Shown here in pieces: positions 1,794 through 22,026 of a stretch of 23,772 bases of DNA (position 1 is the first letter of the stretch; each line of letters starts with the position of its first letter). The notes beneath the pieces are model-generated. The model made no database searches and was not told the DNA's origin. It saw only the letters and a list, made by a program, of their open reading frames with translations. Origin of the DNA: a virus. Position numbers and translations under genes: made by a program. Location of the stretch: IMG/VR virus record IMGVR_UViG_3300037333_000015, positions 1 to 23,772 of that record; one strand, written 5' to 3'.

Positions 1794-3326
1794 TTATTTT
1801 TTATTTTTTCTTTCTAATTTTCTTTCTAATCTTTCAACTTTTTTAGTTAATTCTTGAACAGCTTTAATTAAAGGTGAAATAAATTCTTCATAACCAATTG
1901 ATAAAACATCTTTACCACCATTAATACTTGCATCGTGATAACCAGCAAAATCAACATTCATTTCATCCATAACTTCTTTAACTTGTTGAGCAATAACACC
2001 ATTATGAGGTCTATTTCTTTTTTTTGAACCATCTTTTTCATAAAATTCTTTAACTTGAATAGTTTCTTTAACTTCAACTTCAATTTCATTACCATCTTTA
2101 TCAATTTCAATTTTTTTTCTTGTTATTTCTTTATCTACAATATTATAATAATCTTCTCTGAAATCCCATTTAAATTGAACAGGTTCAATTTTATTAATAA
2201 ATTCTAAACCTAATGGGTTGATAATAATATCAGTTTTATCTCTTTTATCAGACCTATCTTGAACAGCTCCATAAGCATAAGTTGTAGTATCACTATTACC
2301 TAATTGAACTTGATCATCACCTGTAACAGTTGATTGATAACCTAACATAGTACAATTAACAAATTTATCATCATCATCACCAAAATCTGCATAAGAACCT
2401 AAACAAGTATTATTATCACTATTTACATTAGAACCTGCATAATAACCAATTAAAGTGTTATCATTTAATAAATTATTATAACCAGAATAATAACCTACTG
2501 TTGTATTTTTTTCTCCTGATTTATTTTTTAAACTTGACCTACTACCTATATATACATTATAGTTTGCATCTTCATTATTATAACCAGACTCTTTACCTAT
2601 ACTAATTATATCACTTGCAGTATTATTATATAAACTACTTTGTCCAATAGCTATATTATCTACCCCATCTTTACAACAATAATTAGTCTCTTTACCAATA
2701 GCTATATTATAATCTGATGATTCAATAGAATTATTAGATTTATAACCTAAACTAATATTATGTTCTCCTGTTGTTATATTAATACTAGAATTATAACCTA
2801 AACCTAAATTATAATATCCTGTTGTAACATTTAATAAACTATTACAACCAATACCAATATTACTAGTACCTGTTGTAACATTTAATAAACTCTTATAACC
2901 AATAGCAGTGTTACAATTACTTGTTGTAACATTTAATAAACTATTAAAACCAATACCAATATTATAATCTCCTTTTGTTAATGAATTCAAACTATTAAAA
3001 CCAATACCAACATTATATTTTGCAGTTCCATCAATATTTTCAAAAACACCTATACCTACACCTGTATTATATTCATCATTATCTTCTGTTAGAACTTCAC
3101 CACCATCACCACCACTAAAAGATGTTGCACTAGCAGTGTTACCTTCAATTGATAATATTCCTGATTGAGATTCATCTAATGTTAATTTATAATCATTAAT
3201 AGTAAAATCAGTAAAAACTGAATCATTTAATTTAACTACAATTGTTGAAGTATCTATTATATTTCTACTTATTTCATATACTAATACATCATCTTCTAAA
3301 CTTATTTTATTTACACTTATTGCCAT
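1794..3326 (-). CDS. Second tail fibre/adhesin protein with head repeats and complete S74 chaperone
   Basis: 510 residues. Residues 1-75 are a small N-terminal domain without the RLVD-type T7 gp17 anchor signature, so how it joins the virion is unclear. Residues about 88-310 are 17-residue head repeats of the form IGIGFNSLLNVTTGYYN. Residues 310-357 lead into the peptidase S74 domain. Motifs there are S359-D360 in RSDKRDKTDII, then FINKIEPVQFKWDF, NGVIAQQVKEVMDEM and the final SIGYEEFISPLIKAVQELTKKVERL. In this family the chaperone trimerises the fibre, cuts itself off just before the conserved Ser (here predicted at S359) and is released. Residues 485-510 look like the usual terminal coiled coil. 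The start has GAAAT preceded by AAGG. Only 15 bases separate the gene from the next fibre gene. Confidence 0.92.
   Translation of the reverse strand: MAISVNKISLEDDVLVYEISRNIIDTSTIVVKLNDSVFTDFTINDYKLTLDESQSGILSIEGNTASATSFSGGDGGEVLTEDNDEYNTGVGIGVFENIDGTAKYNVGIGFNSLNSLTKGDYNIGIGFNSLLNVTTSNCNTAIGYKSLLNVTTGTSNIGIGCNSLLNVTTGYYNLGLGYNSSINITTGEHNISLGYKSNNSIESSDYNIAIGKETNYCCKDGVDNIAIGQSSLYNNTASDIISIGKESGYNNEDANYNVYIGSRSSLKNKSGEKNTTVGYYSGYNNLLNDNTLIGYYAGSNVNSDNNTCLGSYADFGDDDDKFVNCTMLGYQSTVTGDDQVQLGNSDTTTYAYGAVQDRSDKRDKTDIIINPLGLEFINKIEPVQFKWDFREDYYNIVDKEITRKKIEIDKDGNEIEVEVKETIQVKEFYEKDGSKKRNRPHNGVIAQQVKEVMDEMNVDFAGYHDASINGGKDVLSIGYEEFISPLIKAVQELTKKVERLERKLERKNKK
2209..2317. repeat. 109-bp perfect repeat shared by the two fibre genes, copy 2
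   Basis: This copy lies inside the upstream fibre gene and is identical to bases 1-109. Identity ends at base 2317, inside the codons following DDQVQL in reading direction. Upstream of it the two genes share only the 17-residue repeat pattern, with clearly different codons. Confidence 0.95.
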
Positions 3327-18591: not shown

Positions 18592-19563
18592 TTAATGTGT
18601 TTCATACCAATTTTTACCAATATTAACTTCTGAATCTAATTTGATTTTTAAATTATAATATTCACCACTTTCTATTAAACTTTCTTTACCTAATTTTGAC
18701 ACTAATTCTTTATCTTTTTCAAATATTTCAATTTGTATTTCATCATGTATATTTGCTACAAAATTATATTTTATACAGTTTGCTCTTAGTTTACTATTGA
18801 ACAATTCTAACATTTTTATCATTATTATACTACTTGCTGATTGTAGTAATAAATTTAAATTTTTATAACTTTCTTCTGATTTTATAATTTCACCATTTAA
18901 TAATTCTATATTATTATTACTTTCTATTTTATTTTTTAATTTATTTAACTTTGGTAAATTTTCAAGAAATTTTTTTTTAATATCTTTACCTATTTTTTTA
19001 TATTCTTCATCAGTTTTATTATTACTTAATTTTTTACCTAAATTTAAATCACCAATTCCATATAAAAAAGCATATATAAATGTTTTAGCTTGATTTCTAT
19101 CTTTTAATTCTGCTTTATCTCTATTATAATTATGAATATCACCAAAATATATTTGTTCTATATATTTTTCATCATCCATATAATGTGCTAATAATCTTAA
19201 TTCTATATTACTTGCATCAATACCTAATAATACTTTATTATCTTCTACAATAAATAATTGTCTAAACTCTTTACCATATAAAGAATTTTTAGATGGTATT
19301 GAACTTATATTAGGGTTTGAATGTGATATTCTTTTTGTTATAGAACCATTAATTTTATGATGACTATGTATTCTATTATTTTTATCATTTTCAGCATATT
19401 CTATTAAACTTAATAATAATGTCATTCTTCTATTAATTGTATCTTTATCTGCATCTATTTCATATATATCATTTAATAATTTAATATGTAATTGTTGTGC
19501 TTGTTTAACATCAAATTTAAAACCGTATTTCTCTTGTTTTTTTATAATTTCCTCAAATTTCAT
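18592..19563 (-). CDS. Minimal family A DNA polymerase (palm and fingers only)
   Basis: 323 residues, against 704 in T7 gp5. Residues 3-30 (FEEIIKKQEKYGFKFDVKQAQQLHIKLL) match T7 just after its exonuclease domain (LLAKQERNGFPFD). Then about 150 T7 residues (thumb and thioredoxin-binding region) are replaced by only about 25, and the match resumes at RIHSHHKINGSITKRISHSNPNISSIP. Motif A is GIDASNIELRLLAH (D116). Motif B is RNQAKTFIYAFLYGIG (R156, K160, Y164, Y168, G169). Then LLLQSAS (238-244) and motif C HDEIQIE (H273, D274). The C-terminus NWYETH parallels T7 NWAICH. All catalytic residues are present, but the 3'-5' exonuclease domain is absent. The start has AAGGAAAAGTA before ATG, so the short form looks genuine. 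Confidence 0.93.
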   Translation of the reverse strand: MKFEEIIKKQEKYGFKFDVKQAQQLHIKLLNDIYEIDADKDTINRRMTLLLSLIEYAENDKNNRIHSHHKINGSITKRISHSNPNISSIPSKNSLYGKEFRQLFIVEDNKVLLGIDASNIELRLLAHYMDDEKYIEQIYFGDIHNYNRDKAELKDRNQAKTFIYAFLYGIGDLNLGKKLSNNKTDEEYKKIGKDIKKKFLENLPKLNKLKNKIESNNNIELLNGEIIKSEESYKNLNLLLQSASSIIMIKMLELFNSKLRANCIKYNFVANIHDEIQIEIFEKDKELVSKLGKESLIESGEYYNLKIKLDSEVNIGKNWYETH

Positions 19564-19575
19564 TACTTTTCCTTT

Positions 19576-20323
19576 TTATTTTTTTAATATAAATAATTTT
19601 TCTGTTTGTTTTTTTTGCCCTAAACCATTTTTTAATTCTTTTTTAAATATTAATTCAAAATATTTCGGTGCATTATATTCACTTAAAAATATTATACAAT
19701 TTTTATTATATACTAAATTTTTACACCATTTATAAAATTCATCTTGATTTATTTCTAAATTTTTTGAATATTTAGTTGTATTAAAATATGGTGGGTCTAA
19801 ATAAATAATAGAATTATTTTCAATTTTTAAATTTAAATAATCACTATATATAAATTCAATATGTTTTATACTTTCTCTTTGTTTTAAAATATTATTATGT
19901 AATATTTTTTGATAATTCCTTTTAGATTTATTATCATTATCTTTATTACCTGCATAACTATGCATAAACATACCACTAAAAGTTTTAGTAAAACCTATAT
20001 AACCTATATACCATTTTTCATATTTTTTTATATAATTTTCATTATCTTTATTAAAAGGATGTTTATGGTTGTTATAATAATCATCTTTTTTCATAAAATT
20101 AAATTCTATTTTATCATTTGTTTTCATTTTATTTAATAATGCTATTAAATATTTATTATAATCACTTCCTATTATATTTTTAAAACCATTTTTATCTATT
20201 TTATCTATTAAATTTGCACCACCTACAAAAGGTTCATAATAGTTTTTTATTATTGTCGTAATAAATTTCTATAAAACCTAATATATCTTTACTTAATCTA
20301 TTTTTACTTCCAATATATACCAT
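19576..20323 (-). CDS. Dam-type (D12 class) DNA adenine N6-methyltransferase, broken by a frameshift
   Basis: The gene begins at 20323, overlapping the helicase stop as TAATG, and reads MVYIGSKNRLSKDILGFIE, the usual start of this family (R-Y-x-G-S-K). It then hits TGA at 20234-20236. The frame one base over continues without a break from about 20268: FITTIIKNYYEPFVGGANLIDKI, containing the AdoMet-binding motif EPFVGGAN. It then gives a full target-recognition region (YIGFTKTFSGMFMHSYAG), catalytic motif DPPYFNTT and the end GQKKQTEKLFILKK. A single +1 shift near 20263-20269 would restore about 247 residues, a normal Dam length. An internal ATG at 20127 gives 183 residues without motif I and should not be active. 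The cause may be an assembly error, a recent mutation or a programmed shift. Confidence 0.88.
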
Positions 20324-22026
20324 TATTTTTCCTTTTCATTATCTTTTATAAAATTTTTTATTTTTATTTTTTCTAAATATTTAGGTGTTTGGTCTTCAAG
20401 TAAATCAATTTTATTATTATCATCTTCAATTCTTCCTGTTAATTTATTATATTTTAATTTATCAGCAATACCTGTGTCTCCTGTCTCTCTACATTTTAGA
20501 ACTCTTATTTGTAGTTTATTTTTTTCATCACCATCTGCTTGTTGATTTCTTTCTAATGCTATAATTTGATCACTTAATTGTTCTAAACTTGCAGAACCTC
20601 TTAAATCTGTTAATGATACATTTCCACCTTCATTAAAATCACCACCACTTTTTCTTTTTAAATGAACTATTGCTATTATTATCAAACCTGTTTCTTCACA
20701 TAAACTTTTTAATGAAGTCATTATTATATCTAATTCTTTCCTTTCGTCTGATAATCTATTACCACTTACAACTATTGAAATATGATCTAAAAATACAACA
20801 TCAGTTTTTAATACTGTTCTCATAAATCTTATTTTATTAATTAAATTTTCACTATCTATACTACCAAAATGATTATAGAAATTTATTCCTTTATCAAATA
20901 ATTTTTCTTTTGATTTTTTTATTTGTTCAATTGTTAAAACTTTTGTTGGGTTTATTCTAAAATCTTTTAAAGGTACATTATTATCTAAACATATAAAAGC
21001 TTGTGCTGTTTTTTTATATTGTTCTTCAAGAAATATCATACTTACTTTTTTTCCTTTGTTTTTAAAATCATAAGCTATTTCCCTTGCTAATGTTGATTTA
21101 CCTATACCACTTCCTGCTGTTATCAACATTAATTCATTTTCTCTAATACCCATAGTCATATCATTTAATTTATTATATGGAAATTCTATACCACCTTCCA
21201 TTGGTTCTATTAAATCTTCTAAACTTATATCATCACCACTTATTATACTATCAGGTCTTAAAATTTCAGCATTATATATACAATTAACTAACATACCATC
21301 TTTATTATCTTTTAAATAATCATTAGCATCTTTATATCCATCTGTATATCTTACAATTTTTGTTTTACCTGGTTGAAATAAATTTGACACATCTTCAATT
21401 ACACTTTGTCCTGCTTCATCATTATCAAATGCTATTATTATTTCTTCAAAACTATCTACATATTCAAAATTTTTTAGTAAATCTCTAACTGCATTACCTG
21501 CACCATTTGGTATTGATACAACAGGTATTTTATTTTTAAATATTTTTGAAATAGATAATGAATCTATTTCACCTTCTGTTATTATAATTTTTTTACCACC
21601 ACTTTTAAACATATGTGAACCATATAAAGTAATTTCTTTACTATCACCTATCCATCTAAAATCTTTATCTTTACTTCTAGTTTTTTGTGCTACAATCCTT
21701 CCTTCTTTATTTCTATAATTAGCTATTTGTAGTTTTTTTTCTTCATTATATTTATAATCATATAATTTACAAGTATTTTCATCTATATTTCTAACTTTTA
21801 ATTCTTTAACAATACCTTTTAATAATTGTTGTTTTTGTTTTTTTACTACTACACTATTTACTTTATTATCTTTTTTAGTATATGTTATACTATTATCACC
21901 TTGTTTTGTATTATTACAAGAAAAACAATGTGAAGAACCTCCTTCATATATTGTTTTTGCATCTGAACTCCCACATACTTCACAAGGTTGATGACTTAAT
22001 TTTATTATATTATGATTATTTCCCAT
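20323..22026 (-). CDS. DNA primase-helicase (T7 gp4-like)
   Basis: 567 residues, the same as T7 gp4 (566). The zinc-binding primase domain has C15xxC18 and C34xxC37 (PCEVCGSSDAK...HCFSC). The TOPRIM core has TEGEIDSLS (E151) and FDNDEAG (D201, D203). The RecA-type helicase has Walker A GSGIGKST (305-312), the catalytic glutamate in FLEEQ, Walker B FLDH (D414), H455 in IVHLKR, SLTDLRGSASLEQLSDQIIALERNQ and LKCRETGDTG with the arginine R513. It lays primers and unwinds the fork for the phage polymerase. The C-terminus is lysine-rich, not the acidic tail by which T7 gp4 contacts gp5. The ATG follows AAAGGGAAAAACAA; the gene overlaps the methyltransferase start by one base. Confidence 0.97.
   Translation of the reverse strand: MGNNHNIIKLSHQPCEVCGSSDAKTIYEGGSSHCFSCNNTKQGDNSITYTKKDNKVNSVVVKKQKQQLLKGIVKELKVRNIDENTCKLYDYKYNEEKKLQIANYRNKEGRIVAQKTRSKDKDFRWIGDSKEITLYGSHMFKSGGKKIIITEGEIDSLSISKIFKNKIPVVSIPNGAGNAVRDLLKNFEYVDSFEEIIIAFDNDEAGQSVIEDVSNLFQPGKTKIVRYTDGYKDANDYLKDNKDGMLVNCIYNAEILRPDSIISGDDISLEDLIEPMEGGIEFPYNKLNDMTMGIRENELMLITAGSGIGKSTLAREIAYDFKNKGKKVSMIFLEEQYKKTAQAFICLDNNVPLKDFRINPTKVLTIEQIKKSKEKLFDKGINFYNHFGSIDSENLINKIRFMRTVLKTDVVFLDHISIVVSGNRLSDERKELDIIMTSLKSLCEETGLIIIAIVHLKRKSGGDFNEGGNVSLTDLRGSASLEQLSDQIIALERNQQADGDEKNKLQIRVLKCRETGDTGIADKLKYNKLTGRIEDDNNKIDLLEDQTPKYLEKIKIKNFIKDNEKEK

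Follow-up and report, generated by a model that had tools for sequence, protein, structure and literature searches.

A Dam-family adenine methyltransferase gene in a very AT-rich T7-like phage record, probably broken by an accidental one-base length change

Introduction

N6-adenine methyltransferases of the D12 class (PF02086, phrog_56) are carried by phages including Cellulophaga phage phi12:1, Vibrio phage K435 and Enterococcus phage PMBT2, and are encoded there in single open frames. A broken gene of the same family has a precedent in the records of Vibrio phages 141O35-1 and 141E35-1 (OX241427, OX241556; L262:801-1520), of oyster and seawater origin. Their Dam-family gene is interrupted at two homopolymers, a C7 run and again near a G6/A6 run towards the end of the gene, identically in both records, whereas the gene is intact in the relatives K453-K461. 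T7-like phages with the same replication and virion gene order as the phage described here are the Pelagibacter phages (Pelagivirus, Votkovvirus) and Lauvirus (Autographiviridae), and those examined are without a methylase between the helicase and polymerase genes.

The window analyzed was the whole virus record of 23,772 bases. It has a GC content of ~20%, well under that of the pelagiphages it resembles, and encodes a T7-type primase-helicase, DNA polymerase, portal, scaffold, capsid and tail genes. The closest matches by protein were Pelagibacter phages and Lauvirus at roughly 35-45% identity. Judged by gene content and protein similarity, the source is a very AT-rich T7-like phage, and unlike those of its counterparts that were examined it has a methyltransferase gene, on the minus strand, between helicase and polymerase.

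Results

The gene begins where the T7-type primase-helicase gene ends (20323-22026, minus strand; 567 aa; PF03796, PF21268 and Toprim; phrog_239). The helicase TAA overlaps the methylase start as TAATG, as the first-pass annotation had pointed out in taking 20323 for the true start, and the assignment was strengthened by an AAGGA Shine-Dalgarno sequence at 20334-20330, a pattern found upstream of nearly all window genes. From ATG 20323 the N-terminal frame opens with MVYIGSKNRLSKDILGFIE and runs for 29 codons to a TGA at 20236-20234 (first frame, 20234-20323, minus strand). All 19 other genes with a stop inside the window end in TAA.

The remainder of the gene lies in a second frame (19576-20268, minus strand), which is open from 20268 down to TAA 19578-19576. 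The AdoMet-binding motif FxGG (EPFVGGAN, 20235-20212) is one frame on from the frame of 20323. It was thus correctly reported that start and AdoMet motif are in different frames and that everything past the break, DPPYFNTT included, is intact. Off-frame codons are stops 16.7% of the time in this genome, so that the openness of the second frame is not due to chance (223 open codons, P ~2e-18). PF02086 was matched in this frame with E = 5e-10 and 40 bits against a cut-off of 22, across profile positions 23-241 of 253, and both the AdoMet motif and the catalytic DPPY (19797-19786) were present and aligned with those of eight relatives. NCBIfam returned no name. As in the phrog_56 enzymes, the N-terminal layout is YxGSKNR...EPFVGGAN, and identity to them is 37-43% over nearly the whole second-frame part; unlike theirs, the gene here is split after ~26 codons. 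By its domain and motifs, the gene is a broken member of the phage-borne D12-class N6-adenine methyltransferases (Dam/DpnM fold family). The start and the rest of the gene both have clear coding character, and the frame breaks between 20268 and 20236. Translation from 20323 as written would yield a 29-residue peptide that ends ahead of the AdoMet-binding motif, and therefore no methylase would be made.

The interval in which the frame can switch is bounded by TAG 20271-20269, beyond which the second frame does not extend upstream, and by TGA 20236-20234. Each possible switch point was scored against a profile of the relatives' N-termini (78 distinct sequences). The top-scoring point was an A6 run (20243-20248, minus strand; 64.4 bits), the likeliest position of a one-base length change. 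The shift had earlier been mapped to GAAATTT (20269-20263); that placement scored 57.7-57.9 bits and appears to be misplaced by ~20 bases, ~6 bits below the A6 run. When the profile was rebuilt from half-samples, the A6 side (20248-20242) was best in 37 of 40 rebuilds and an upstream -2 reading in the other 3, and the lead of the A6 run over the 20269-20263 site was 3.6-7.8 bits. A start-to-EPF spacing of 29 residues, the value seen most often in relatives, results from either site, so that sequence fit and not spacing separates them. Codon log-odds weakly favored the A6 placement (-1.5 vs -3.6 bits). The break is therefore most likely at the A6 run 20248-20243, its exact position depending on ~6 bits of profile score.

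A frame break at this place was found in 0 of 88 relatives (80 from IMG/VR and 8 from phage records), all of them distant. The N-terminus is covered in 79 of the 80 IMG/VR relatives, the remaining locus (L071) starting within the gene, and these N-termini were not selected for, because they lie outside the query used to fetch the relatives. The nearest methylase relative is 43% identical, and the nearest relatives overall are at ~43-45% protein identity. The first-pass annotation had proposed that a shift shared by several genomes would tell against a plain error; the comparison covered these distant relatives only, and none has the shift. Single-protein scans with Dam (viral_contigs and genome_contigs) and with the helicase (viral_contigs) gave no close relatives; in profile scans with helicase and portal, relatives among the first 600 candidates were at most 45% identical. 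An exact scan of viral_contigs for the site at any run length gave no copy, the record itself possibly lying outside that set. Apart from weak distant pairings, this methylase was not adjacent to a helicase or polymerase of the T7 type in any fetched locus.

Other coding sequence in the window holds 143 A/T runs of at least 6, and 0 genes are interrupted; errors are thus not widespread in the record. Among T7-like IMG/VR loci, one candidate frame break was found in 399 core-gene instances, with a bias in the counts for helicase and portal, because these two genes were used to fetch the loci. The candidate is the DNA polymerase of L122 (L122:5111-6815), in which the exonuclease and polymerase parts are in different frames, representing either a frame break or two genes.

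Signals of recoding were also sought. The heptamer A_AAA_AAC has the phase of the second frame and not of the first, so that -1 frameshifting of the classical kind would lead in the wrong direction. RNA folding at the break was at shuffle level (z-score 0.08), giving no stimulatory fold. A right-phase slippery site with a stimulator was thus not found, nor was conservation in the 88 distant relatives; a +1 or -2 slip with re-pairing on AAA AAA is conceivable. The A6 run is one of 88 runs of that length, and longer A7 and A8 runs stand in frame elsewhere in the Dam gene.

Discussion

An accidental change of one base in length has very probably broken the Dam gene: relatives keep the frame, the best switch point is a homopolymer and no recoding signal was found, all of which point to an accident. 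Placed most probably in the A6 run (20248-20243), this change would switch off an accessory methylase. With no further damage in the gene, the break would be either a recent null mutation or a consensus error; the absence of accumulated stops downstream fits recent loss or error, and would also fit a gene that is still expressed. The precedent in Vibrio phages 141O35-1 and 141E35-1 is alike in its homopolymer frame changes and intact relatives, and differs in that the breaks lie at other positions of the gene. Four causes had been listed unranked for the shift; error and fresh inactivating mutation fit the results, whereas phase variation is disfavored by the shortness of the A6 run, and a programmed shift by the lack of the shift in relatives, the wrong-phase heptamer and the missing fold.

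Within the accidental explanation, the recent loss of a dispensable gene through a null mutation has a probability close to even. A consensus or assembly error, by which the phage's own gene would be intact, is a serious possibility of somewhat lower standing: in published figures, the share of genes with homopolymer errors is ~1% for Illumina metagenome contigs (10x) and at least 20% for low-GC 454 assemblies (PMC3277595), and the remainder of the Dam gene is perfect. An error is, however, at odds with the absence of any other visibly broken gene in the window despite the 143 A/T runs, with the rate of only ~1 break in 399 core-gene instances of comparable IMG/VR loci, and with the fall of the break in an accessory gene that makes up ~3% of the window. 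On rough base rates, a null allele is slightly favored over a consensus error.

Recoding, by slippage of a T7-type RNA polymerase on the A6 run or by a +1 or -2 ribosomal shift, would leave a leaky gene with some full-length methylase, and is improbable. Three A's suffice for T7 RNA polymerase to slip, and indel mutants of the M2.MboII methylase were rescued by such slippage (PMC6260861); phage Mu has a known case of -2 shifting that leads to the +1 frame (PMC5009743), though nothing in the present sequence indicates one; and the downstream reading frame is fully kept here. Yet the direction needed, an mRNA one base short, never reached 20% on poly(A) (PMC6260861), the RNA polymerase gene of the phage is absent from the window, conservation, fold and heptamer phase all speak against a programmed site, and slippage would be expected equally at all A runs of this genome. 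The narrower version, that slippage on the A6 run by the phage's T7-type RNA polymerase compensates a real break and gives a little methylase from phage-driven transcripts only, is more doubtful still. Methylase genes are a class that is often phase-variable in bacteria, and a homopolymer break in such a gene might suggest that the A run changes length at a high rate and turns methylation on and off between phages. This is very unlikely: the run is only A6, the in-frame A7 and A8 of the same gene are longer, and the viral_contigs scan gave no variant record. A shorter methylase from an internal start codon can be given hardly any credence. The second frame is open from 20268, but no ATG, GTG or TTG occurs in it ahead of 20127; ATG 20127 is without a Shine-Dalgarno sequence and would leave out the AdoMet motif, and the ATG at 20237-20235 that overlaps the TGA belongs to the third frame, which closes after four codons.

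The case is an ordinary one, a break in an accessory methylase gene of a phage, seen in a single record; as it stands the observation carries little weight, the gene being broken or misread. Nothing suggests a designed genetic switch. If the break were real and the enzyme still made, the locus would be a case of transcription-coupled recoding in a very AT-rich phage; an A-run frame break in a single record should not be taken as regulation.

Other observations in the window

The neighboring family A DNA polymerase gene (18592-19563, minus strand; PF00476, phrog_15971) is intact and short. Its product of 323 aa has no 3'-5' exonuclease domain and lacks much of the pre-palm region, and no separate exonuclease was seen within the window. 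Podophage Lau218 (Lauvirus) has a similarly trimmed enzyme of 313 aa, compared with ~578 aa in pelagiphages. Trp codons are scarce in the window genes (25). Four-base palindromes are depleted across the whole window (seen vs expected: GATC 8 vs 32, CATG 5 vs 32, GTAC 5 vs 27, CTAG 10 vs 28), as if under restriction pressure. Two adjoining tail-fibre-like proteins (3-1778 and 1794-3326, minus strand) carry many IGYxSLxNNT-type repeats and have the stretch VQLGNSDTTTYAYGAVQDRSDKRDKTDIIINPL in common; the pair is perhaps a duplication.
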